From: Nautilus pompilius
Taxonomy: Eukaryota; Mollusca; Cephalopoda; Nautilida; Nautilidae
Direction of reading: 5' to 3'
DNA: 64,000 nucleotides
NCBI GenBank assembly: GCA_018389105.1
Contig: JACATO010000653.1
Span: forward strand, 248,001-312,000
A program made the position numbers and the translations under genes. Positions 8,501 to 62,939 of the stretch are shown in pieces. Within the stretch, counting starts at the first letter, position 1, and each line of letters begins with the position of its first letter. Under the pieces are notes generated by a model. That model had not been told where the DNA came from. It searched no databases and saw only the letters and a program-made list of their open reading frames with translations.

Positions 8501-11500
8501 GACCTGCAACTGACAAATTTTGAAAAAAATAGCCCCTACTCAAAAATATAGTCTGAGACAAGGGGAAAATTCCAAAGAGAAACAAAACAAGCCCCAGGAA
8601 TGGTTTCACTACAAATGGTGTTTGTTTTGATTAATAATACCTACCGGTCAAGACTGAAGGAAGTGAGTACATGCGGCCGATCTATCAGCTCCACAACTTT
8701 GCTGGTGTTTAAAAGTGTTGGAATGTCTTTTGATGTTATTTTCTCTTCTGTGAGAAATAGAGATTTCACAAACACAAACAGCACATCTTGCATAATTTAT
8801 CCCCTTTAAAGGACAATACAATATTATTGAGCATCTTTAATACGCTTTCCTAAACTTCTGCTCACTATAAACTTTTTTTTTCTCTCTTTTGGAGTCATTG
8901 GGGACAAAGCAGAACCATGTTCTTCAACCATTTTTCTTTAGTGATCAGAGCAACCTAGATGCTTACTACTGAGTGCATAGAAAAACTGGAATACAGCAAA
9001 ACACCGGAATAATAGACCAAAATACACAGGCATTTTTTAAAAGTAACCCTGACAAACTTTTGTAAGATCGAGATGCAAAGCAGAGAGCAGTTCATTATTT
9101 CTGGAAAATTTTGGGTTGATGAAAAAATTCTGGAATTTTGCATAGATTCATTACAAAGAAAAACAATTCGAATAATTGTGTCGAAATCGTAAGAGTTGGC
9201 AGGTCTGCGTCAGTAGGTTATTTCAAATTTGCATTATAACAACAGTCAAATTGGGCATGAAACTCATAAAGAATTCGCATGTGAAGTTACCAAACATGGC
9301 AACTTCATGACAACATACCAAAAAGCAGCAATACCTAACCACAGATTGTAACACTTGGTGTGATGCAGTGTGTCATCAGCCAACTTTGGCAGAGTTAGAG
9401 ACAGACACTGTTGTGGTGCTCCTGAACCTATCACCCATCAACTATCCGGTTCAATGCAACAGCACTATTGCAACATGTTCCTCCAGGACAAATTGTGGCA
9501 GACCTCTGGTCAGACTGTACAAAATCAGCTGCTCTAGATGCTCAGTAGCCACACACCTCTAACACTAGCACATCACAGGATGAGACTAGAACCCGTCTGT
9601 GCTTCAGTTTGGCAGACTGGTCTTCTCTGACAAGAGAAATCCAACTTCACTTTATTAATAGTCATTTGTGTGTTTGGTGAGAATAAAACCAACATTATGC
9701 TGACAAATGCGCTAGGAAGAGACTGTTTTAAGGTTGGAGGCAGTTCAGTCTACAGTGCTGCATCACATGACTACAAAAGTGAAAATATTCCCTTTGGTGA
9801 AACTATTTATTACAGGTCAATGTTGGCTGGATGAGGTCACCAGATCTGTTGTTATATTATTTCTACAATGTCATGGAAGTCATTTTGCTTTCAATGGATG
9901 ATAGAGAGCCCATTATGCAAGAATAGTAAGGCACCAACTTTTGAGAGAAAAATATCCAATATCTTCTATGGCCAGCTCATTTCTCTAACCTAAACCCCAC
10001 AAAACGCCTAAAATGAGTACTTCTATGCACACTGGACAGTGGCCATGTGCTCCTGGAGCCATTCCAAACTTAGTCAAGCACTGAGAGAAGATTTGGTGAA
10101 CAGTATGAAAGACAGGTGCAATGTTGTAACGCAAACCAGAGGTAGCCATGCGAACACAACTAAAGACCATGTGACATTAGGGTCTGTAGGTAGTGAGTAT
10201 TTGTTGCCATTATGATGTTACTAAATATATCAAGTGCAAGATGAAATCTGTATGTCAACTAAGTTGTAAATTGTTCGTTCTTCATAAATTTGTACAATGT
10301 ATACACAATATCCCAATTTTGTTTTAATCAGTATATATTTATATATCTATGCACTGCAGCATATAGTGATTTTGTAAGTTAGTTACATTTATGATGGTAT
10401 ATTAACCACAAATTTCACCTTCCAGGCACAATATGTAAACTATACCATTTTAATGGCAAGCAATGGATAACTATGTAGACAAAACTCAGAATTCGTGCTA
10501 CATCAATTGTTGTCTGAAAATAGTATTCACATGACATAAATATTCCTCATTTACATGGTGTATAATCAATCTAATGACTGACTCTATTATATCCTACAGG
10601 TTACTGTGACTCTGGAAAAATCTGATGCTTTTGATGTTCGTATTGGAAAGGGAATCAAGACTACAGCTACTATCACAAAGAAACTTCTGGTAAGCATGCT
10701 GTTTGAGTTCATTAGCCATTTTTGTATGTGCATATTTTAAATAAAGTCTAAAATCTTTCGAATTTATGTGTTTAAATTTTTTGCTAAGCCACTAGCTTTT
10801 TTTTTCATTTTCTAAAAAATTTAGCACATTAATTACTTCCCTTTAGTCATTAAACAAGCTAAAAATAAATGTTCTCAGTTCATATTGAGAGATTATTAAA
10901 ACTATGTAGCTATTATGTCCTACCTCAGAATTAGCAGTAAAAGTCATGGCAAATGCATGTGGCTCTATTTATTCTTAATTTATCTGAACCAAACATAGCT
11001 GGTTTTTACATACTGCTTGTAAAGCAGAAGTCAGTCACTTCTGAAGTAGATGTTAACCCTAGATAGAAATACAAGTAAATACTTATTTTGAATAATAACT
11101 GAATTCACTTTTCTCTTTTTAATGTAGATTGATTATTGATCAAATTATAATCTATTTTAAAGCCTAAATGTGCCAAAGTCTATTTCTATTTAATAACAGA
11201 AATATTGAAATGCAGCCTTTTCTGTTTTTAGTAATTCATTTTAAATATATAATAATGTCTGATAATGCTACCATCACATGAAATCACTACACAGTAATGT
11301 CTGACAATGCTACCATCACATGAAATCACTACACAGTAATGTCTGACAATGCTACCATCACATGAAATCACTACACAGTAATGTCTGACAATGCTACCAT
11401 CACATGAAATCACTACACAGTAATGTCTGACAATGCTACCATCACATGAAATCACTACACAGTAATGTCTGACAATGCTACCATCACATGAAATCACTAC

Positions 11501-14500
11501 ACAGTAATGTCTGATAATGCTACCATCACATGAAATCACTACACAGTAATGTCTGATAATGCTACCATCACATGAAATCACTACACAGTAATGTCTGACA
11601 ATGCTACCATCACATGAAATCACTACACAGTAATGTCTGACAATGTTACCATCACATGAAATCACTACACAGTAATGTCTGACAATGCTACCATCACATG
11701 AAATCACTACACAGTAATGTCTGACAATGCTACCATCACATGAAATCACTACACAGTAATGTCTGACAATGCTACCATCACATGAAATCACTACACAGTA
11801 ATGTCTGACAATGCTACCATCACATTAATCACTACACAGTAATGTCTGACAATGCTACCATCACATTAATCACTACACAGTAATGTCTGACAATGCTACC
11901 ATCACATGAAATCACTACACAGTAATGTCTGACAATGCTACCATCACATGAAATCACTACAAGTAATGTCTGACAATGCTACCATCACATTAATCACTAC
12001 ACAGTAATGTCTGACAATGCTACCATCACATGAAATCACTACACAGTAATGTCTGACAATGCTACCATCACATGAAGTCACTACACAGTAATGTCTGACA
12101 ATGCTACCATCACATGAAATCACTACACAGTAATGTCTGACAATGCTACCATCACATTAAATCATTACACAGTAATGTCTGACAATGCTACCATCACATG
12201 AAATCACTACACAGTAATGTCTGACAATGCTACCATCACATTAATCACTACACAGTAATGTCTGACAATGCTACCATCACATGAAATCACTACACAGTAA
12301 TGTCTGACAATGCTACCATCACATTAAATCACTACAAGTAATGTCTGACAATGCTACCATCACATGAAGTCACTACACAGTAATGTCTGACAATGCTACC
12401 ATCACATGAAATCACTACACAGTAATGTCTGACAATGCTACCATCACATTAAATCATTACACAGTAATGTCTGACAATGCTACCATCACATGAAATCACT
12501 ACACAGTAATGTCTGACAATGCTACCATCACATGAAATCACTACACAGTAATGTCTGACAATGCTACCATCACATGAAATCACTACACAGTAATGTCTGA
12601 CAATGCTACCATCACATGAAATCACTACACAGTAATGTCTGACAATGCTACCATCACATTAATCACTACACAGTAATGTCTGACAATGCTACCATCACAT
12701 GAAATCATTACACAGTAATGTCTGACAATGCTACCATCACATTAAATCATTACATAATATTGTTTGTTTTATTTGCTCTCTATGGACAGAGCCCTGATTT
12801 ATGATTTACACAGTGGTTCCAGTGTCAAGTCAAAAGCATATATCACAAACATTTAGTTCCAACAATGCAGTGATTCAGTTCCCTCATCTTGTCACTAAAT
12901 ACTCCAAATGCCTGCAGCCATTTGGTATCACAACTACTGTCATCAAGACCAGCAGAAGAACTAACTTTGTGCATATTTTCCTTGCATTTTGTTTTGAAGC
13001 GGTTAGTGCTGTAACCTTGCCCCACGTTAGACATTTTGCTTTACTGAGTCATGTGAATCACCACACCATGGATGCTCTCTGTCCTCAGACTTGCACAATT
13101 CTGCTATCAAGTGCACTTTTGTGAGAAAAACATTAAAAGGGTCTCTCCACTTGGCATTCCAAAAATGAGGAGAGTCCCAGGCCAGACCCAGTCACCCATC
13201 TGTAAACTATGTGAATTGGTCATAGACACAAATAAAATCAGGCCCATCACAGTTAAAGATTATCACCATCCAGGTGGTGTCGGGCCTTTGATTTCCCCCT
13301 GATGTAGCCAGGCACATTTAGAACTCACTTTTCCATTTCTTGAATGAGCCAGTGAGATTAGGGACCCAGGTGTCATGTATACAAACTACAGGTAACTCGG
13401 TAGGTGTTTGTGATAGCATAGTACTGACATCTTACAGATCTGTTAAAGAGGTACAAATGGATTATGTGCTGTACCCAAGAGCTCCTACAAAATAGCCTGC
13501 ACAAAGTAGCAGAAATAATTTATTTACTCCAAATTTCCAAGCTGATGTGAAATAAGACAATAAGGTAAAGCCAGGCAGAACTTCCCGCACACACATGGGT
13601 TAACAGGGCTGCTTTTGCATCAGTTTTAACACTAGACAGGCAGTGTATTTTGGTGACATACACTTACATTCAAAATTATGAGCACACCATATGGAAACAC
13701 CCGTCCCGCCTTCTCAACATCGTTTTTAATGAAAATACGTTTTTTTCAGCAAAAACCACGAAAAATCAGCTGAAACTAGAATAAAAATTGTGCTCAGCTC
13801 TGTGTAACTAAAATGAAAACCCACCAAGTTTATCCACCCATGAGTGCCCCCCTTCCTGTTGGGGTATTTAGATAGAAAGGGGCTGTTAATCAAATGGCTG
13901 TTCTGTTGCTTCAGTAAAATCAACAGGATCTTGTATTTCTCAGAACAGAAAAGCAAAACAAAACCCTGACAGCAGCCAGATACCAAATGCAGGCCAGGTT
14001 TTCGATGTAAACAGCACTACTCCCTGACGGACCTCCTGTGTGCTTCTGGATCATTTTCAACTCTAAAAGTTTCCCCAGCTGGATGCTGGATGCCCATGAA
14101 GATTTATTCTTTAGAATTCTGTTTCAAGATATTTGCAACACCCTTTGAAGTACCCTTATATCAATACTGGTTACTCCATTTGGGGGGGGGTGATATGTTA
14201 GTAGCATTCTGCTCTTCTAAATACAATACATCTAACATTCTGACTGAATGCTATAACATTTTGCAGTATTTAGCTGTAGGCGAGGGGAAGAGAAGCTGGC
14301 AACAAGCAAGTTTATTAATGAATATCATGGCTGCTATGCTTCATTATTGTAATTGTTATGTTGCAGGCAAAGAAAAATGGCGGAACAAGTGTGTCCTTCT
14401 GGATTGTACCACGTGGAGTGGGTCACATAAAAATAAAAGTGGCAGCTAAAACCAATGATATCGCTGATATCATAGAAAAGGATTTACTGGTTAAGGTAAA

Positions 14501-23500: not shown

Positions 23501-26500
23501 CATTAGAAGCTGGAGTCTTTATTGGAAAAAGGACACTGAGTTCTGCAGAGATTTACTAGAATGCTTCCAGAACTTAAGTATTTGGAATTTGCTGCCAAAT
23601 GATTAGACATTAATCTACCAAGTTTGAATTTTAGGCATCTAAGGGAAGATCTAATAGAGGTTTCAAGCTTATGAAGGAGGAGCAGATTTTTCAGCCATCT
23701 ACAGCTGCTAATCATAATTATAGATCAGCTGAAATTATGGCACATTTAGTCGTCAAAAAATATTTTTTAAAAATTATTGATTTGTTAATGATTTGAATAA
23801 ATGGCTGCATGCGTAGTTAATTAATAGTGATGATGTTAATCATTTTAAGAATTACATTGATGATGATCATTATTCATCTAAGGATGGTGCTTACATCACA
23901 CTGCCCCCTGTTAGCTGACAGACGAACTACTACTGTTTGTGATTTGATTTTAATGATTTAATGTACTGATCACCAATTATCAGATGCATAGAATAATTAA
24001 TTAAATATATCCAGCTCACTAATTTAGAGAGTACATTATTATTGTGGAGCTCTTTTTGAACAAGAGTTAGAGAAATGCCACCAGAAGCCAGATGGACGCC
24101 AATAAGCTCAGCAACAGCACAAAAACATGTGCACGGTCTTTATGATGAGGAGTCGTGGTGCTGCCCCTTACGTTCTTAAAAATAATAATGAAGATTTAAA
24201 TTTACTTAATTTCCCTTGAAATTAATAACATAGATAAGTTATTAAAGAATTCTAAGTTATTGAATAAATTAACTATTTATTTACAGAGTAATTGGATGAC
24301 AATAATTACTGCAGCAGTCTATAGTTTGAGGTTGGTGACAGTATCCTCGTGATCAGTTGTCTTCAAAGCCACAGTTAAAAAAAAGGAAAAAAATCTGATT
24401 AAAGACAGAGAAATAATGAGTTCTAATTTGCCAGTTTCTAGGTAATGGAGACGTAGAATTTATTTGGTTACAAAAGTACATCATGCATGCAAAAAAGATG
24501 AAAAAAGTAATCACTTAATATTAATTTTTATAGTTTTTGATATAAAAAACAAAAAAAAATACTGTACAAATTCTTTTTATGACTAATTTTTATCAGGTTG
24601 ACTGCCTTCGTGATGAAATGTTTTGCTCAAGCCAGTAGGACTATACCTGATGTCCAAATTAACAGCTTAATAATGAAGAGGTCACTGGAATTTATTGTGT
24701 CCAAAAGTTCTCGCACAGGTGATTTTATCGAAAGTGGACAGGTCATTCATCAAGAAATGCAGGTATTTGTTTAAAAGTTTTCTGATAACTTCATTTAATA
24801 ATAAATTTTAATTGATATAATGGAGCATGTGAAGCAGGAAGAGTGGATGCAATTGTCACTTCCCCACCAGCTCTAAAGACATGCTATGTTGGAAGACATC
24901 ATTGCTTCAACTGCAGAGGTTATCTTAAGCCAGCTGGAAGCAAAGGGGGTATGCCTTTCAATCTTTATTTATTCTCTCAAGAGATAATGAACAATGACCA
25001 AAATGTGCTGCCTTTTTACTTCATGCTGGTGGACTTAAATTTCAGGGATTAAGCTGCACATTGGTACCTGAGGAGATGATAAAAACCTTCTGAAAATGCA
25101 TGACTGTGTTGGATAATTATGTTTATGCCTTTGAGTTACATTTGTTTCATCAACTTGAACAACCACCAAGTAAATCAAATTGCCATTTTGTGTCATCTTA
25201 GACAGAAAGCCACCATGTAATTTTATTTGTGTTGATGAGACAATTTGAGATAAAAAACTCATTTGTAAGTGCTGCAGTCCACTCTTGCATTCAAATTTCT
25301 CTATAAAATTGGTCATGCTACTCGACATGAGTGATATCCTGTAAACCCTTCAGAGGATGTTGTTCATATGCATTTCAGGTCCCTCCAAGGGAAATCCTCA
25401 AAAGAAAGGAATGGACAAAAGTGTATCTCAAGTTTTTAAAAGTTGCAAAGATTACTGTAAAGTTCTGTGTGTTATATGTGGTTTTTTAAAGAAAATTTAC
25501 CCTTTGAAAATTGGGTGCTTATTATACAAGGTATCAGACATTGCACTTTCCCCCCAGACCGCTGGGGCCATCAACAGTGACAGATGAGCGAGCGATAATA
25601 TATATGCATACATTAGAAAACCTCATGTGGCAATTTGACTGAACATTGCGTCTTGTGTGTTTTGGGGGATATGAGTATTGAATGTCACTGGGTTGAGTAT
25701 AATTGATACTGGCAATGAAATGGGGAGAAACAAAACAGAGAGTCCATACTGAAACTATGTGTAAAATTTAACTACAAAAAACAAAAATGCAAGTAATATT
25801 TTTTTGGATAATTGGCATGCATTGATATGATGTACATTTAGATTAAAACCCATCAAACTCATCCCTGCTGTCTTCTTCACTCCACTGCATGAACTGTTCA
25901 TCTGTCATGGTAGCAGTTGTGTCATAGTAGATATCATTATTGTCGCCCCTGTTTTCTACAACCTTGTCATCCCTCGTCTCAGACCACAGGATGTCATCTT
26001 CAGTTCTGCCCATGGCAATGGACAGGCAGCACCCAAGGAAGCCAATTTTGATGATCTTATGGTCAACTTCTTCCCAGTTATTTCTGATCCAGATGGCAGT
26101 AGTGGGCATGTCAGGTTGGCACATGCAACCAATGGGAGTGAAGGTGTGTTCGCCCTCCATCATCCATGTATTCCATCTCAGATGGACCCCACACCTGACT
26201 GGGCAGCTACAAGCTACATCCATGACCAGCAGCATGGATGTCATACCCCCAGGGATGATGGCGAGGTCTGTGAAAGTCTTCGCAGATTTCAAACACTGGC
26301 ATCTGAAGGTGTCCAGTGACAGGAGCTTGTGGAGCAGCATGTCCAGTCTGCCCCACATGGTGTCCACCCAGTCTAGCATGCAGGCTTCATCCATCCACCC
26401 CTTGGCATGGACCCGGATGTGGACACCATTGGGGAACTGATCCTTTGGCATGATCTTCCTCTTGAAGATGATGTATGGCAGGAGTTCACTTCTGTCAGCT

Positions 26501-29500
26501 ATACACCCCAGCATGACTGTGAAGCAGGTATTCTCATGGCCAGTCATCTTCATGGTGACGGTCTTTGACTCTGATGGGGGTCACTGTGCGCTTGTAGGGA
26601 TGGTCGAACATCATGGGCGTCTGGTTGGCACTCCCTGTGAGACTTGTGGGGTAGTCATGTTGTTTTCTCAGTTTGATGATAAACTGTTAGTACCTCAACA
26701 GCTGATGTTTGTTATCATCAGGTAGCTGTCTGCTGGCATATGCTCAGTTGATTGCAGACCATGAAGCATGCACATTAGGGTAAGGACATTTTTCAGATTT
26801 AAAAGCCTGTGGTGGCAAACGATGAACTTTTGCCTAAAACTTACAAAAATGCCTTTCGTTTTGTCAAACTGTGAAAAAAGCTCCCGCACCTAACAAGACG
26901 TTGTATTAGGCCAGGGGTCGGGAACCTGCGCTCTTTGATGGCCCCTGTGCGGCTCCCAACATGGATTTTACGTAATGCAAATGGAGTAATTCTATGGGTA
27001 TTTTAGCATAAAATTAGCATTTTGCAGCTCTGTTAGACTAAAACACAGCCGATGCAGCTCTTTAAGCTGAAAAGGTTCCCGACCCCTGTATTAGGCTGAT
27101 GCATCAAAAGAAAATACTGCTATTTACAAAAGTCTTTATTTGCAAATGAATAGAGTGTACATCAAACTTTAAAAAAAGGTTTTTAATTTGTGAATTACTG
27201 TTTATGAACTTGCTGTCAAGGTATGTGTCAGTTTTGCAAGTGCTGTGAAGCTCCTCCATTAGCTTCAGAGCTCGCTTGGCCACCATATTGGAGTGAGGCA
27301 CATCAAGCACTGATCGGTCCTTTATCCAATGGGTGGAAAAACATTTTAAGGCCTTAAGACACTTCAATTTAGAGACAGCAGCATGCAGTGTCTTCTAAAT
27401 AGTGCTGATTGAGAACCATGCCTTCGCCCATGTAGTTGTGATGAAGTCACCAGTAGCTTTCAGCTGATCTCTCCATTTCGGAAAGAGAAAAAAGCAATCA
27501 GTGCAAAGATTGTCCGTGAATTCCACCTGGCACTATGAAGGGAGGGCAGCTTTCGCCATTTCATATAAGCCCATTTTCCCTCCATCCAAAGTTTTTACGT
27601 TTTGGCATCGTTTCTCTGCCAGAATAGATTTTTTGTGAGTCCTCATAGCCTGCCAAAACATCTTCAATGAAATTATAGTTGATGTTGGGTGACCGTGATG
27701 TTGTTGAGAAAAAGTAATCCATCACGTGCCGTAGAACCAGGTCGAGAATGTGATGTTGGCATCCGATATATTGAGGCTCTTCTAGTCCCTTTTGTCTGAA
27801 CTGTCTCTGGAGTCTGACAACAACACCACTTTGGTGGCCTGTACTAACTGCTGTGGTGTCAGAAATAATCATTTTGACACTCCTCCATGCATTGTATTCA
27901 TCCAGCAGAGCTTGCAGTGGGATGAAGATGTCCTCAGCTGATCTGCTTTCATAAGCCAAATGCCAAGGTGTAGAGTTCTTGCAGGATTCTTTAGACAGAC
28001 CACCTGATATTCTTTATTGTCAGTTCTCTTCCCATCAAAATGCAAGCAAAATTCCTCTTCACCAACAATTTATTTCAGCCGGTTCTTGACTCTTTCTGCA
28101 TCCTTGATCACTCGACGCCAAATTCCTGATTGTGATGGTGTGGGTGCATCTATTCTTTCTTCAGCCAAGTTTTGAAGAACATTTGATGCTTTCCATGTAG
28201 ACAAGGACACTTTTGATACCAGCTTGGCAGCAGATTTTGTTGCGCGATACTTCCGTTTCATGAAGGGAGACTCTTCTGCAACACCAGAATCAGTGCTGCT
28301 CTTTTCATCTTCAGTACTACTACTCCTCAGCTCTTGCACTTGGCTGGTTGACGGTTCTGATGAGTTTCTTGGCCATTTTGAAGGATGGATCGTTGATATA
28401 GGAGCCACTTTATCAGTCGTGTATCCCAGTCGGCCTCTTGATTCAATTTGTTTTCTGTAAAGTTCTTTGTCTTCACTGCAAAGCCAGTTTCCACTCGGTT
28501 TTGTAATATCGAAAAGACAAGTGAGATTTTTTTCAAATTCTTCATTCTGCCGCTTTCTATATTTTTCGAACATTTTTATGAGCTTGTCAACCTTTGCTGA
28601 AACTTGCTGTTCAGAAAGAAAAGGGAAGCTCAGTTTCTCCCAAAGCTTCAGCAATTCTTGAGATATCTTCCTTATTCGGTGTGCTCGCCCTTTGAGTTCA
28701 TCGTACAACCCCAATAATCTACCAGTTTCTCCCAAAGCTTTAGCAATTCTTGAGATATCTTCCTTATTCGGTCTGCTCGCCCTTTGAGTTCATCATACAA
28801 CCCCAAAAATCTACCAACAATGTCTCTGTTCAAAGGAATTTTGCACATGATCTCATTTATGTCCTCTCTCATTTCTGGTATGCTGGGACGCCGCCTTGTA
28901 GTTTTTGTCAAGTTTTGTGTCCATTTCTTTCCGGCTGATTCCACCGCTGATTTGGATCGTTTACTTTTAAAAGACATGTTCGAAGCTGAAAACAGAAAAC
29001 ATGCAATGAAAATCTTTAAACAAACTTCAACAAAAAAAACCATCAAATTACCTACTTGATACAAACCTTACCTTGTCTACACGGTGTAATATCCCAGCCC
29101 GGTCTTGGGGAGAAGGCGGTGTTTACTGACACAAGTGTATTACTAAGAGACGAGCTTGTGCTCGCAGTCACGCTGAGACCTTGTGTGTCGTGATGTGTAA
29201 ACGATGAAGCTAAAAAGGGTCAAACAGAATGGGGGCAATCTAAGGTCATGAGTTAACAACAGGGATCAATAGAGCTCAATGAATGAGGGTAAAATAAGGT
29301 CACGAAGGGCCAATCAGAATGCACGGGAATGCGCCCGAGCGCATACATCACACACAGCACACACACAAAACGGCAACACTGACAACAAAACAGCTGCTGC
29401 TGAAACCCACTCAGCCCTCACTTCTTGTGTGCAGCAAAGATGAAATGATGTTGGGTGCGGGAGGTTTTTACATAACCAAAAGAAAATAACATCAAAAAAC

Positions 29501-51000: not shown

Positions 51001-52860
51001 CAATATGAAATAGGGTCCAGTATTCAAAATTCTTCTTCTTTGAATGATGCACTGCTAATATCTTTCATTTGATAAATCCTCAAAAATAATGCTTTCAGGA
51101 AATATTTTTTCTAATGATTACTAAATGGAAAAGAATAGATCCAGCAGTCTTTTTAAGGGTGGAATCTATGGATGAAGTTTATTTCAAGTGAATGATTTAA
51201 ATATCTGTCACATTCTCAAAAAGGGCTATAATTTACTGCTTATGAACACTTGCTTTTAAACAGTTTAATGCATTTCTCATTTTTAAATATGGTTTCTTTG
51301 TCAAAACTATTTAAAACTTAAGATAACTAGTCTGCAAGTTCTTCCACTGATTCCATCATAGTGAGTTTTCTTCTTGTATTACTCTTTACAGCACTTGTCT
51401 GGATATCTTGACCACATTCAAATCCTTGTACAGTTAGCTATAACCTGTTTTAATAAATCCTTTAAATTCTGCTAATCACCTTTCCATTAATGCCAAATCA
51501 AATGACTAATACAACTGAGCCAGTGCTTCATATGTCTTAATTAGTGGCTTAATTATTTCAATTAACTGCGCATTCCACAGTAGTTTTAATACGAAACACT
51601 GTTGTATGATCTCTTATTGCTGAGCACTCCCAGAAAATGTTAACCCATCTATAATACAACATATCCAATTAAATAAAAATACACTCTACAGCAATTTTGC
51701 TATGTTAAAATGCCCAACTAACGATTAATTAATACACTCTGGCTACTGAATAAATGAGATGCAGAGTTATAGCTCTTCTTACATAAAGTCATCATCTAAA
51801 TATACTATTCAAATTTTAGCAGAGTGGCAATAGCATTTTCAAATATTTTCTTTCCGAGATAAATGTCTTTCATGATCAAAGCATTTTCATGATTTTGTAT
51901 TTCCATGAAATTTAAAAAAATGTAAAAATTGCTACTCTACTCTGCTATGAGTGGTGTTGGCTGCCTTTATGTCTCTCTAAATCCGGCCTGTTCCAAATTC
52001 AATAAAGGTACATAACAAACCTGAAAATTTATGAAAACTAAACTATCGAATAAAGTTTACAATACTTGAATATTTTGGTTTGTTACGTAATTTTTAAAAA
52101 ATGATTCTTTTATTTGTAATTAAATAAAGCTGTAATAATACAGCAATGGCATTAAAATCATTGTACATGCTTTGCATCCTTATAAACAGCAGAACCATGC
52201 ATATCATGTACTAAATGACAAAGTAGCTGTGTACACAACATCTCAATTATTTTGGATTTTCTTAAGTAAACTTTGAAATTTTTTGCCAAGATTTTGTACT
52301 AAAATACCAAGTCTGTGTGCAGTGATGGAGAGAAGTGTAGTATGTAACTACAGATGTTTATATGTTTGAGTGTCCATACTTCTGTTTCTGTATCCAATAA
52401 CCCTGCACAGCAGGATGAGATCAGAGAAACAAACAATGTCATGTGCTTATTATGGGAAGAATTTATCATTATTATGATTTCATAACAGCAGCCATTCACG
52501 TGATCAGGAAATGATAGGATGTTGGACCTTTAAGTTATCCTTTTTGGACATGGTCATCTGGAAGGGCTGAGTGAGAGAGAGAGAGTGTGTGGGGGTGTTT
52601 CAAGAGGAGACAGCCACCCCTTCCTAAAAAGTTGACGGTGATAGTGCAATGATAGCCTTATTCTCTGCTCTATTATTATAGGACAATCAGATGAGTGAAA
52701 ACATGGCTGAGGGTAACAATGACAGATGATTGTTTGCCTGGACTTGTATAAATGATGTTCACAGAGCAAAAGTTACAGATAACAAGCACAGACACATTCA
52801 AAAAGTAAATAATCAAATTGGACAGAGAAGTTTACAGTTTGTATTGAATAAAAATGAGGT
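48020..52860. other. Intergenic stretch after the thioester gene
   Basis: AT-rich, with a short (TGC)n at about 48163-48179. Frames on the - strand at 49.5-50.6 kb look faintly transposase-like but could not be matched to any family. No gene is supported. Confidence 0.4.
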
Positions 52861-52870
52861 TCTGTTATTG

Positions 52871-53219
52871 AGGGATCTGATGGGGCAGCACGACAGTAAA
52901 GTATGGAGGGCTTTGATGAGGCAGCACGACAGTAAAGTATGGAGGGCCTTAAGTATCGAGGGCTCTGATGAGGCAGCACGACAGTAAAGTATGGAGGGCT
53001 CTGATGGGACAGCACGACAGCAAAGTATGGAGGGATCTGATGGGGCAGCACGACAGTAAAGTATGGAGGGCTCTGATGGGGCATCACGACAGTAAAGTAT
53101 GGAGGGCTTTGATGAGGCAGCACGACAGTAAAGTATGGAGGGCTTTGATGAGGCAGCACGACAGTAAAGTATGGAGGGCTCTGATGAGGCAGCACGATAG
53201 TAAAGTATGGAGGGCTCTG
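52871..53219. repeat. 36-bp minisatellite, nine units
   Basis: Units of the form gaggcagcacgacagtaaag plus tatggagggctctgat. Nine copies are present, one carrying an extra cttaagtatcgagggct insert. The unit is divisible by 3 and stop-free in several frames, which creates ORFs of up to 159 codons on both strands. These are not genes. Confidence 0.96.
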
Positions 53220-55285
53220 GTTGCTGGGCACTTTCCCACACTTGATATTATTTTGTCAATTCCCCTCCACCATAAGTTATCATGCAGACTTTTTTCATTT
53301 CCCCCTTTCCAAATAAACCTTGATGGTTCTTCACTGTTGATTTCTTTTTTGCTGCTTAATAAAAAGAAAGCAGTAAAATTAAGTGAATGTTTGTCCAATC
53401 ACAATGCAGATACATACATTTCTAATAACTGTTTCTATACAATATAATCTCTTCTATAAAAAAGCAGCTACTTGACCAGTCTCTCAAATTCTCTAAAACT
53501 ATGATCAAAATTTACTCGTTATTCGAACTCACTTACTTGATTTAGTTTTCCAGTTAAATAAGTAACTGCTATCCAATGCCACCCTTTTTTCCTCCTAAAT
53601 TTTTCTTGATCTGCTGTTATCCAATTACAAGATGTCAGTGCATGTGATAGTTGAGGCATTGTCTAGCAGACCACCACAAATAAACTGATTTAATTTCTTA
53701 ATATTAATATGTAAGTCTAGTTCCTTTTATACTTCCTATAATCCAACTTTTGTAACATCTTAGCTGCTGAATTGTTTGTGATCCATTAATATCTTCTCTT
53801 AGAGCATCAGAAAACAGCTACATTAATCAAAATTATCCTTGTTTTTCCCAAAGGCCGACTGTGTTAGACACGGTCAGGCAATGAGAAAACCAGCATTTAC
53901 TGAGATATAAGGTAAGGATGCTGCTGTGAGGTACTGCATAATTTAAAAAGAGCCGATCAAATCACTACACCATGCAGGAAAGATCCAAAACAATTTTAAA
54001 AAAACCTATTGTAGTGAAAAAGGTGGCGCATAACCAAACATGGACTTTCTGCCAAAATTACACCAAAAGCAGGTGACAGTTAAACATGAAGGTAAAATAA
54101 ATACTTCAGGTATTTAACAGACAGGGAATTCATTCTCTGCCTCAAATATAATGGCTACATCTTTAAACCAGTGGCTTCTCAGGAAAGAGAACAATAAATT
54201 ATATAATTACAATGGCAACAGCACTAGTTCACCATAGTTTATCTACTATGAGTAGCAATCTGTGTTAATTAAATATTAATTGCTGCATTAATCTTTATTT
54301 AAATAAACAGAAAAATTTCAAAAAAGAAACTATCATATTGTGAGGCACTGCAGATTTTGTCCACTGACTAAACATTTTAACCTTCATCATACGAAAGCTA
54401 GAGTTGTTTACACCCAACACGTCATTTTTTATATAAGCTGGAACAAATTGATATATTTGACCTTTGTGAATAATCAGTGAATGAATTTAATCTATAAACA
54501 GAAAACCCATAAGCACATGCAATGGACTGATAAATTTTAATGCTGGTTGCTCAATGTATGTCAATAGAAACTGTAAAACACCTGTTTCTTTAAGTAAATT
54601 ACTGTTTCAGTGATATCTCTCTGCGATAATTCTGACAGCAGCCTCTATCTACAGATTTTCCCTCATTTCCAAACTTAATCCAACTGTTTATCAGTTAATC
54701 CTGCATGAAAAAAGTCCATTTCCATTTCATGCTAAATAATCTGTGTTACAAAAATAGTTATTTTAGCTGATTGAAACCTGCCTTATCTTGGGTTTAGCAG
54801 TCACTGCTAACCAACAAATCTGCCAGTTCTGGCAGCCAAACACTTCAATCAGCTCACAGTTTCAGTCTTGTTTTTATCTGTTATTCATTTTTTCTTTCAC
54901 CAATGAAATCAGAATGCAAGAAAAAACAATAAGAAATACATATTCTAAACAATAAAAGGGCTTTATAAAACTATTTTTGCCCTTAAATGGATTAAGAACT
55001 TTGAGCAAAAGTTGTTTTGTTGGGAAGGCCAAATTGTTTAATTACAGAAACATGAGAAGCTGACATTTATGATACTAGTCACTGACAGTGGTTAGGGAAA
55101 CCACCCAGTCACACTTCTCGAACACTGGAGTGGTGATCCATTGGATACTGATCCAGTGATGGGTCAAGTACACTTCAAAGGCATCCTCCCAGCTCTCTGT
55201 ATGCTAAGTTACCACCTTCCTGCCACCGTTCTTAGTTTTTCAGTCTCTATCAGTAATTCCTTCTTTGTTTTGTCTCATGGTGCAG
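53220..55285. other. Intergenic, no gene seen
   Basis: AT-rich sequence with no recognisable coding or repeat structure. Confidence 0.45.
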
Positions 55286-58689: not shown

Positions 58690-60390
58690 GTTAATAGCAT
58701 CCATAGCATCTCTCTCTCTCTCGTTGGGCAGCATTCGTCTGCAAATGCGTGACCTTCCCTTCACTCACAAGCTGAACGAAGAGAGAGATCATTGCTCACC
58801 TGGCGCCTTTGCATGCCTGGTTTTCACGACGGCGGAAGCCAAAATCCTCTTACACACCCTGCATTCGGAGTCCTCGTCTTCTTCTGCAATGTACAGATAA
58901 TAGATTTCGTTTCGGTCTCACTCATCTCCATGGTGCAATGCAACACGTGCCCGATCACCCAACGAGCCAGTGTCCCTCTGTCGCTGTCTCTTTATAAATC
59001 CATTATGAACCCGTAAAATGTTACCACATCTCTCTCTTCTTTTGTGTCTACCACGTCGAGGTGCATCGCCATCCATTGAGCTGCATCCCATCTACGGCGG
59101 CGCTCGTTTCTTTTTCTTCCACAGCCAGTGTTTTCATCAGTTACTCCGTCGTCTACCGCTTCATCCCTTTGCTCATGCCCTTCACGATCAAGTTCATCAT
59201 CAAATACATCAGGGTGTTAGAGATATCGATAAACATGCGATCAGTGGATGAATACTCCCTCGTTAAATCTCTTGATCCTACCAAAGAATCAGAGAGCAGG
59301 GCTGTGTTGCTGGCCCCGACAGTGGATCAGCTGTAATACGAAGCAGAGCAGTAAACAGGGTTCTGAAGTCCACCGTTACTGCATCGGAGAAATGACGTTG
59401 AGTCCAACATTCACGAAAGTCGTTACCAACACCGTGGTGGCATCAATCAGTCCCTTGCCGCAGCTACTGAGCTCCAACCCATGTTTCCTGTTCACTAACA
59501 GCAAGGATCCCCAAGACACCCACCACTCTGGTGGCATTTGGCGCTGTCCGACTGCACGTAAATTTTTCTTACATATGGAAAATCCTCCTTCAAATGCATC
59601 ACGATTCCTTAGTAAATGGAAATGACGGCAATGCAGCCCGTTTGGAACCACCTGAGCGGTGGATCATGCATTCATGCCCTCTTCCCCATGGTCCACCACA
59701 AGGATCATTCCGTCTGTCGCAAGAATTTCCGTTTATTGATGCGATTCGGCTTCTTAGATTGTGCGCGCAAGCTGCATGGCCCATCATAACCTCCAACTTA
59801 TCCTCACAACCTCGTGACAAAATCTGGCGCTTTTTTCTTGGAAATGCATGATACGAAGCGTAATCCGACACCCACTGCACTGAGGCCCTACCCCCCACAG
59901 CTCTCCGTTGAAGGTTTTGACAGTGAGAAACCAAGTCGCAAGTTGAGAATGGTCTTTTTCCAGATGATGTCCTCAAATTCATATTCCATGAGCAATTCAA
60001 TAGCACTCAGTGCCTTTCAGCACAGAGTTTGCCGTGCTCCATCTGCCAGGGTGCTAACCATTCTGCTGACCATACCCAAATTGTCTTAGAGTAGAATTCC
60101 ACAGCCAACCACTTTCTGATCGAAAGATGTTAATGATGAATGGAGCTTCATAAAAGATCTGTGCGAAATTCTGTTCTCACTGGCACTGTCGCATTCCAAG
60201 TAGTCTGAGTAGACTGACTCTTTGATTTTCATTCGCGTAAATCGTGGTAGGACCAGTTCTTCTCCATCTAGCAGAAAATTATTCCTCCTCGGAGTTCTTA
60301 TATTCCTCAGCGACAAGATAAATCCGATGGCCTTCTCGATGTTCGATTCTCGGTAACGAGATGTGCTCCTTTCCAAACTTCGATCTGGTC
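58690..60390 (-). mobile_element. Unclassified transposase-like relic (QSDxAxCxQSGG family)
   Basis: A GC-richer block, read on the - strand from 60.38 kb down: SNIEKAIGFILSLRN, NNFLLDGEELVLPRFTRMKI, MVSRMVSTLADGARQTLC, KALSAIELLMEYEFEDIIW, LRWFQTGCIAVISIY, YVQSDSAKCHQSGG, LELSSCGKGLIDATTV. I associate the last blocks with a multicopy invertebrate family with a DDE-like core (x-S-D-N-A-x-C-Y-x-x-G), recalled, not checked. It has several stops and frameshifts. It can also be read as fragments of an unknown host gene. Confidence 0.5.
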
Positions 60391-60594
60391 AACAAAATTA
60401 AATGTATTATACTCATTATGAATGCAAACCAACTTTTTTTAGACTAATTTTTCATGCTGATTTCAAAATTTCACTCCATTTGTATGCAGCACGTATCAGT
60501 TTTTCAGTAGATAAATGCAAATATTTACATATTTGTATATATGAAATCATTGACGTAATAAATAAGGACATATTATTTTTAGAAAGTAAATGAG

Positions 60595-60600
60595 TTTATT
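60595..60600 (-). promoter_or_regulatory. Candidate poly(A) signal of the 287-aa ORF
   Basis: AATAAA on the - strand, 87 bases past the stop codon of the ORF. Confidence 0.45.
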
Positions 60601-60686
60601 GAGTTAAAAATCATCACTATCATTCTACAAAGAGTGAATACACAAAAAATGGGTCAGACAAAACAGACAAAGTTAGAACAACAGAG

Positions 60687-61550
60687 TTAGAAACATTGTG
60701 ATTTGGATTTCCTGCGGTGTTCCTGATCTGGTTGATCACGGTAAAGTGTCCAGCAGTAGTCAGCCAGCATACTGTCATTCCAGAAGCCTTGGTACCGTTT
60801 CTCCATAGCACTAATGTCCTGGTGAAATCTTTCACCATGCTCATCAGACACTGCTCCAAGGTTATCTGCGAAGAAATCCAGATGGGAGTCCAAGTAGTGA
60901 ACTTTCAGTGACATGCGACAACTCATTGCTGAGTAACATTTCAGAAGATTCTTGATGCCATCCTTGTAGTCCATTGCCTTCTTGTTGCCCAAGAAATTCT
61001 CACAGATCCAATTGAAAGCATTCCAGGCAGGCAGTTCCAGTTCATCCAGTGTTGTCTGGAACTTGACATCTTTGAGTACTTCTCTAATTTGGTGTCCGAC
61101 AAAGATACCCTCTTTCAACTTCGCCTGTGTGATTTTGGGAAACTTTTCTACAATATACTCAAACCCTCTGACATTTCTCTTCCCTAGTGTCTTTACAAAC
61201 TGTTTCATCAGTCCAAGCTTTATGTGCAAAGGAGGCAATAGGACATTACATGGATCTACAAGAGGTGTATTCTTGATGCTAGACAGTCCTGGCTGGTATG
61301 ATGTTCTTGTCTGCCAGTTTGATTCCAAATAATTTTTCCTCTGATTGAACCAGTCACGTAAGCCATTTGAGCAAGCTGAGCAGATAAAATGTGGTGCCCA
61401 TAACTTGTCCTGATCTCCAAGAGGACAGTCAAAGTATAGCTTATAAATCTTCTTGATCTCTGGTGTTGTTGTACGTTTTTGAGCTTTCACAATAAATTGT
61501 CCACAGACATAACAAAACACATCAGGAGGATTTCTACACTGTCTTGACAT
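60687..61550 (-). CDS. Intact 287-aa ORF of a multicopy zinc-finger/ERFHQDI transposon-associated family, internally deleted
   Basis: The start is taken at the Met of MSRQCRNPPDVFCYVCGQF (61548-61550); the frame is open 34 codons further up, but that part comes from a degenerate tandem repeat. N-terminal part: C13-x2-C16 and C57-x2-C60 pairs, with LGDQDKLWAPHFICSAC, a likely zinc-binding domain. From about residue 100: PLVDPCNVLLPPLHIKLGLM, then FVGHQIREVLKD, HYLDSHLDFFADNLGAVSDE, HGERFHQDISAMEKRYQGFW, MLADYCWTLYRD and a basic tail RRKSKSQ. Family members as I recall them are about 600-700 residues, with a large middle region that is absent here; the two ends are fused in frame. A poly(A) signal lies 87 bases after the stop. 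No other copy in the window is this intact. Function unknown. Confidence 0.75.
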   Translation of the reverse strand: MSRQCRNPPDVFCYVCGQFIVKAQKRTTTPEIKKIYKLYFDCPLGDQDKLWAPHFICSACSNGLRDWFNQRKNYLESNWQTRTSYQPGLSSIKNTPLVDPCNVLLPPLHIKLGLMKQFVKTLGKRNVRGFEYIVEKFPKITQAKLKEGIFVGHQIREVLKDVKFQTTLDELELPAWNAFNWICENFLGNKKAMDYKDGIKNLLKCYSAMSCRMSLKVHYLDSHLDFFADNLGAVSDEHGERFHQDISAMEKRYQGFWNDSMLADYCWTLYRDQPDQEHRRKSKSQCF

Positions 61551-61604
61551 TGTTAACACTGTAAAACAAGTAAGGAAATGGATACAAACGGTTATACTTA
61601 TATT

Positions 61605-61730
61605 GAATTTGAGATGTTGAAATATTTCATCAGACAAATTATGACTGGACAATTTGAGATGTTGAAATACCTATTCCATCAGACAAAACTTGATTGGTTA
61701 ATTTAAGATGATGAAATATTGCATCTGAAC
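61605..61730. repeat. Degenerate tandem repeat upstream of the 287-aa ORF
   Basis: Three diverged units of about 45-55 bp share ttgagatgttgaaata, catcagacaaa and a gactgga/gattggt block. They could be subterminal repeats of the transposon carrying the ORF. Confidence 0.65.
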
Positions 61731-62841
61731 TATGAAGCAATGAATAATGTAGTTTATTTTAAAGGTATGTTTCCATGATGTAAATGAAATACATGCATAC
61801 ACGTCATTAATTGGAATTTCTATATAATGCATGAGCTAAAACCAAAAAACTTCCTCATCTTGAAAACTGTATGTGATGTCAAAAAACTAATTGTATATTT
61901 GAAATCAGCATTAAAAACTACACTAAGTACACCTTGACACATGCTTGATGAAAAATACTCGTTGACCAGTGTAATTCGCGATGCCTGTTCGAAATTCTAT
62001 CTTACCAAATGGGTTGATCAATGTCTTCAAAGATTTTAGACTGATAGACGAACACAAAGGCGCTAGTAGCACTTTTCTCTGGATACTTTTTGGTTACAAT
62101 GTATATTGAACACTGACCATCGTAGTCAACAGATCTCCGAAACTTGTTTTCCCAGATTCTCCGTTCAATTTTCGCCAAACTACCTCCATTAGACCTTCAA
62201 TGATATTTGGAACCAACATGGAACACGCTAAACGCAGAATCATAGCACAAATACAATACAATTGGCACTTGGAAGCTCTGAGAACGATTTGGTTTGTCAT
62301 CGTCATTCTTTGCTCTCACAACTGCTGGTGGCATTGTCATCAATCCCGAAAACGACTTGAATATTCTGTAAATTCAACTCTCCGGGGATAAGCCCTGATG
62401 AGGGCTCAGTGATATCAGCTGTAGTATTATGTTTACTAGGCGGTGATTCATTGTGCCTCATCCAACAACCCAGTTTCTTCCTTGAGGACACCATCATCAT
62501 CAGAATCCAAATGATGCCGACTCGATCGCCTCCGCACAACTTGATTTCACAGGCTGAACTCCACCTGCTTTTTGAGAAAGTTTGCTTCCTATATCCAAAC
62601 CATCACAATCACTAGCAGCTGAAACAGACTGGACATCTCGGTCTGTTGTATTTGCATGCAATTCGAGCTACTTCCGTCTTACTAGACGTCATTAACGCCT
62701 CACTGGAGTTTCTACCTATCAAGTTGGGGGAAGTGAATTTTCGATAATTTCTTTCGTGATGCACCGAGAATAAAACAGAGCCCGGCAAACGGCTTCTCTC
62801 CGCCACGGAGATTCTCAAAAATAAAAACGAAATCTATTTCC
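61731..62841. other. Region with unassigned - strand ORFs
   Basis: Between 62.09 and 62.82 kb the composition is richer in GC, and short - strand frames (for example SDDDGVLKEETGLLDEAQ and RKLNGESGKTSFGDLL) look like a decayed coding region. I could not assign it. Confidence 0.3.
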
Positions 62842-62939
62842 CCACCTTGACCTGGGTTTGTGTACTGACGAGAAAGTGACCACCTGTGGCCCACCTTGAC
62901 CTGGGTTTGTGTACTGACGAGAAAGTGACCACCTGTGGC
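62842..62939. repeat. Perfect 49-bp tandem duplication
   Basis: ccaccttgacctgggtttgt and the rest of the unit repeat exactly, starting at 62842 and 62891. No difference was seen between copies, so the duplication is recent. Confidence 0.93.

Follow-up and report, generated by a model that had tools for sequence, protein, structure and literature searches.

Interrupted gap repair is a described source of internal deletions in the transposons Ac/Ds. The ends of CACTA (CMC-EnSpm) elements begin with CACT[A/G], and the target duplication of PIF/Harbinger elements is TWA. Three described systems, considered here from excerpts of the respective reports, are closest to the locus studied. During experimental invasions of P elements, copies with internal deletions overtook the full-length element and some of them had repressor properties (PMC12393704); such derivatives keep the ends of the element and some the N-terminal domain, they can outnumber the full-length form, and two of them, KP and D50, may act as repressors, a retained DNA-binding domain being one criterion (PMC12393704). 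In the PIF/Harbinger superfamily, which duplicates 3 bp of the target, derivatives form a deletion series of one putative autonomous element, some with internal tandem repeats, and the internal deletions are attributed to abortive gap repair (PMC2213677). The animal CACTA elements, exemplified by SmTRC1, have CACTA-kind ends and a protein with two D residues and a C-x2-C motif (PMC1636069).

The window, i.e. the whole stretch of 64,000 nucleotides of Nautilus pompilius DNA that was analysed, contains an open reading frame for which the original prediction, made from the letters alone, offered three readings: a co-opted gene, a repressor-type deletion derivative, or a very young deletion copy. 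In this report, we compare the frame with its relatives in the window's own genome (727.6 Mb) and conclude that the element carrying it is very probably a non-autonomous, internally deleted copy of a recently spread DNA transposon of 2.3-2.4 kb, which is now decaying neutrally.

The open reading frame and its element

The frame is located on the minus strand, where it runs from an ATG at 61550-61548 to a TAA at 60689-60687 without any internal stop, so that the predicted intact frame of 287 codons was borne out. The product contains CYVC (residues 13-16) and CSAC (residues 57-60), corresponding to the proposed N-terminal C-x2-C/C-x2-C arrangement, followed by the conserved C-terminal motifs PPLHIKLGLMKQFV, ERFHQDI, and ADYCW; a literal search of the literature for the motifs GERFHQDI and LPPLHIKLGLMKQ gave no match. 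The N-terminal part matches the Pfam model zf-AD below the cut-off (E 0.012, 16.2 versus 28 bits), and an AlphaFold2 model of the 287-aa protein alone has a mean pLDDT of 35.6. The start codon and the nearby poly(A) signal were likewise found as described, AATAAA beginning at position 60600. The features of the surrounding element are listed in Table 1. At its right end, GTTGACCAG is followed by ATCGAAG in place of TG-TWA, and since both the TG and the target duplication are absent, the window copy does not represent a clean insertion.

Table 1 Features of the element carrying the open reading frame (positions in the window)
Feature	Position	Strand	Basis and remarks
Internally deleted DNA transposon copy, 1587 nt end to end	60385..61971	-	Homology to other copies stops on both sides; mapped on the L034 element
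5' terminal inverted repeat CACTGGTCAAC	61961..61971	-	After TTA at 61974-61972 (ATTA precedes the left end); L001 row
Tandem repeats of 45-49 bp, within the element's 5' untranslated part	61606..61718	-	Repeat families D2 and D3
Open reading frame (ATG to TAA, 287 codons) in which 801 nt of the 554-codon L034 frame are deleted in frame	60687..61550	-	List of open reading frames and alignment with L034
Deletion junction, 3 nt (AAA) matching neither side exactly	61333..61335	-	Between GAGGAA and TTATT; alignment with L034
AATAAA poly(A)-like signal in the 3' untranslated region of the element	60595..60600	-	86 nt past the stop; also present in copies L042 and L043
3' terminal inverted repeat GTTGACCAG	60385..60393	-	L001 row; final TG and target duplication of other copies absent

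The statement that all other transposon genes in the window are broken did not hold, because an open 236-aa frame, possibly a fragment, is present at 25843-26553 (minus strand) and has a match to Pfam DDE_1 (E 1.2e-16). Three further open frames of 130-221 aa are located at 27561-29064 (minus strand), two of which were scanned and gave no Pfam match above the cut-off. The window also contains a minisatellite at 11228-11791 (minus strand) that is open as a repetitive 187-aa frame, a repetitive segment at 52773-53447 with three overlapping open frames across both strands, and a perfect tandem duplication of 49 bp at 62841-62938.

The full-length form and the deleted segment

The larger form present in the same genome is an element of 2.3-2.4 kb with a single open reading frame of 554 codons, which has CACTGGTCAAC as its inverted repeats and a target duplication of 3 bp (TWA). 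A protein search of the genome gave at least 218 matches, 136 of 7189 candidates having been scored. Copy L034 has a 617-aa frame that contains the 554 codons from the same MSRQC start, copy L041, after small in-frame losses, still has an open frame (551 aa), and copy L030 is near-complete and frameshifted. The comparison with full-length copies that had been proposed along with the original prediction mapped the deletion: compared with L034, 801 nt are missing in frame from the window copy, with an ambiguity of about 3 nt, and two ends of a larger protein are indeed fused, residues 1-72 of the 554-aa frame being joined to residues ~340-554, with residue 73 fitting neither side. The window copy has the ends and the flanking sequence in common with the longer element and lacks the middle, as an internal-deletion derivative does. 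The deleted part contains FIDSSKRSLKAVLLHNG and CGDLKVIGMLMGMQSGFTKYCCFLCLWDSR. A query placed inside it (residues 76-299 of the 554-aa frame) gave at least 152 genome matches (150 of 3647 candidates scored), and with the lost part so widely matched, the longer version can be taken as common and the short one as derived from it.

When the 554-aa frame was compared with Pfam, no model was matched above the cut-off; zf-AD alone appeared, at E 0.68, and no match was found to a CACTA transposase domain such as Transposase_21 or to the Harbinger DDE transposase domain. Scans that reach close relatives only gave 3 pattern-matching stretches in viral_contigs and 8 in genome_contigs, none of which was confirmed as a relative of this frame.

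Ends, target duplication, and superfamily

For the flank test, 14 of 73 loci were dropped, namely 8 duplicates and 6 in which no end could be recognised. At 34 of the remaining 59 sites the 3-bp flanks are identical, in most cases TWA, compared with 20.3 such sites on average and 29 at most when the data were shuffled 1000 times; the base before the target duplication is A in 55 of these 59 sites and the base after it is T in 53. Terminal inverted repeats and a 3-bp target duplication as in PIF/Harbinger are thus found across the element family, whereas the window copy itself has no duplication. The signals for the superfamily appear to conflict, since the CACTG ends, which conform to CACT[A/G], point to CACTA and the TWA duplication points to PIF/Harbinger. 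As far as the excerpted reports go, the elements resemble the PIF/Harbinger derivatives in being a deletion series of one putative autonomous element with internal tandem repeats and a 3-bp duplication, but differ from them in their CACTG ends and in the absence of a Pfam transposase match (PMC2213677). With the animal CACTA elements they share the kind of ends, CACTGGTCAAC resembling by eye the sequence CCCAGTCAAC quoted for Aedes aegypti, and the arrangement of D and C-x2-C in the deleted part recalls, again by eye, CACTA-type transposases; they differ from SmTRC1 in the absence of a Transposase_21 match, in a duplication of 3 bp instead of 2 bp, and in an element length of just 2.3-2.4 kb (PMC1636069).

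Sibling deletion forms

The search for further deletion forms relied on similarity to the window element, including its C-terminal sequence; every form examined keeps this sequence, and any forms without the C-terminal part would have been missed. Form A2 (26 sites) also lacks 801 nt in frame, and its junction is located 18-19 nt further along than that of the window copy; all 21 further elements that were aligned with the window copy in this region carry the A2 junction. In form B (188 sites), the in-frame deletion measures 591 nt and its two sides overlap by 2 nt at the junction. In the form represented by L031, L033, and L036 (194 sites), the 5' untranslated part is joined to element position 1267, and both the normal start and the N-terminal domain are missing; on paper, an internal ATG opens 241 aa in L031, 240 aa in L033, and 173 aa in L036. 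The L042 form (9 sites) has a stop at its own junction, and the L032/L037 and L035 forms, which the site counts omit, have an early stop or no start. The scattered deletion copies that the original prediction had named as evidence against its claim were found for the sibling forms and not for the window junction, of which a search allowing up to 3 mismatches gave a single occurrence in the genome.

The length of the 5' part varies among 45 copies, with classes near 326, at 372-377, and at 413-425 nt; all three classes occur in form B and in the full-length copies, and two occur in A2. The A2 copies L008 and L015 (G000:C2074, at about 1.11 and 2.22 Mb) have the same 30-nt flanks although they lie 1.1 Mb apart on one contig, and this pair is a segmental or assembly duplication.

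Age and substitution pattern

Divergence of the copies from the majority base ranges between 0 and 3.5%. Coding changes were counted in the shared segments, with rates derived from the 3' untranslated region and from synonymous sites, partly of the same copies, and the neutral expectation was 70.8% nonsynonymous, 24.9% synonymous, and 4.3% stop changes. Form B (n = 32) has 293 nonsynonymous and 115 synonymous changes and 14 stops (16.4 expected, ratio 0.89), and form A2 (n = 20 distinct) has 218, 64, and 16 (10.4 stops expected, ratio 1.20). Eight copies of other forms gave 18 nonsynonymous and 8 synonymous changes and 1 stop (ratio 0.84), and three full-length copies just 10, 6, and 0 (ratio 0.59). 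Stops versus synonymous changes, relative to expectation, amount to 0.70 in B and 1.45 in A2. The B sample consists of 29 copies taken from exact junction matches in contig order and of L038-L040 from earlier searches, and as most of these copies were picked by an exact match, it leans to unchanged junctions; L048 (truncated) was excluded from B and L015 (duplicate site) from A2. Copies L074-L077, considered as a diverged positive control for selection, turned out to be young copies with indels.

The window copy, at 1.05% divergence from the majority base, has 9 nonsynonymous changes, 1 synonymous change, and no stop, several of these ten changes being shared with other copies and hence not all private. 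Judged from these counts, the substitutions in A2 and B appear to have accumulated at neutral proportions, and the window frame seems to be without sign of constraint, its 9:1 count, a small number, giving no indication of purifying selection. Fully open frames were found in 4 of 21 A2 loci (L004, L005, and the pair L008 and L015, whose flanks are the same) and in 4 of 32 B copies (L039, L040, L045, and L059), where L039 and L040 had been chosen because they are open and L059 is without one codon. As open frames persist in both forms, a single open copy at 1.05% divergence needs no special explanation. In the compared segments, A2 is not distinguished from the other forms by any site, and neither is it from B in the 5' part (45 copies); this lack of form-specific sites together with the low divergence would fit one recent burst.

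Origin of the deletion and possible roles of the short frame

The preferred reading combines two steps. An excising full-length element would leave a gap, and where its repair breaks off an internal deletion may result, as suggested by junctions with 0-3 nt of shared sequence and by the account given for PIF/Harbinger derivatives; the full-length protein would then move the deleted elements in trans, to which the spread of the deletion forms points and which the same report likewise suggests (PMC2213677). That the window frame has stayed open is most likely due to the youth of the copy and to a deletion length that is a multiple of three, and not to any need of the host or the transposon for it. 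As the window copy has its own junction, its deletion is probably an event separate from that of A2. What counts against this is that the two deletions have the same size of 801 nt at junctions 18-19 nt apart, a coincidence that independent events would seldom produce. The identical size would be accounted for if the window copy were an A2 element whose junction had been rewritten by gene conversion from a full-length element, and the alignment around the junction is indeed gapless; nevertheless, the window copy shares no more than two derived bases with any single copy in the compared segments and nothing ties it to A2, so that we regard this origin as unlikely, the test being a weak one owing to the lack of diagnostic sites between the forms. 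That the junction is an assembly chimera might be supposed from its single occurrence in the genome, but the window copy's own changes fall on both sides of it, an indirect point against, and we consider an artefact very improbable.

Concerning function, a repressor of the KP type would be a short product that retains the N-terminal C4 domain and the C-terminal part, binds the ends of the element, and blocks the full-length protein, and that would be favoured during an invasion. Both ends of the protein are kept in three in-frame forms (the window copy, A2, and B), B has reached 188 sites compared with 9 for the L042 form, and the P-element derivatives offer a precedent. On the other hand, the form that lacks the N-terminal domain matches B in its spread, which argues against any need of a two-ended fusion for spreading; stops and nonsynonymous changes gather in A2 and B at about neutral proportions, a fully open frame has been lost in 17 of the 21 A2 loci and in 28 of the 32 B copies that were inspected, and the zf-AD match is sub-threshold. 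Taken together, we consider a KP-like repressor improbable. Since the 194-site form can encode a C-terminal fragment, it is not a fully non-coding control and leaves room for a role of such fragments; the broader idea that short products of the deletion forms, two-ended fusions or bare C-terminal fragments, helped as dominant-negatives to end the transposon burst is improbable. Recruitment of the fusion by the host and its maintenance by selection, for which the intact frame with its start codon and poly(A)-like signal might speak, is very improbable: nine of ten coding changes are nonsynonymous (the chance of at least nine is 0.22 if the ratio is 1, and 0.0007 if it is 0.2), the surrounding element is complete except for two terminal bases and belongs to a young repeat family, and open frames exist in other copies, too. 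Among the three options of the original prediction, it is the very young deletion copy that is supported by the divergence of 1.05%, by hundreds of sibling deletion elements, and by the neutral substitution patterns.

Significance

The derivatives resemble the internally deleted P elements in that they keep the ends and in some cases the N-terminal domain, but they belong to another transposon family, and here the main in-frame form is equalled in number by one that lacks the N-terminal domain (compared with the excerpted PMC12393704). An intact frame that fuses domains amid decayed neighbours can be merely a young deletion copy, and a comparison with sibling copies of the same genome can reveal this even where no second species is at hand. 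The young family described here, with a 554-aa protein that has no Pfam match above the cut-off, may merit an entry in repeat libraries.
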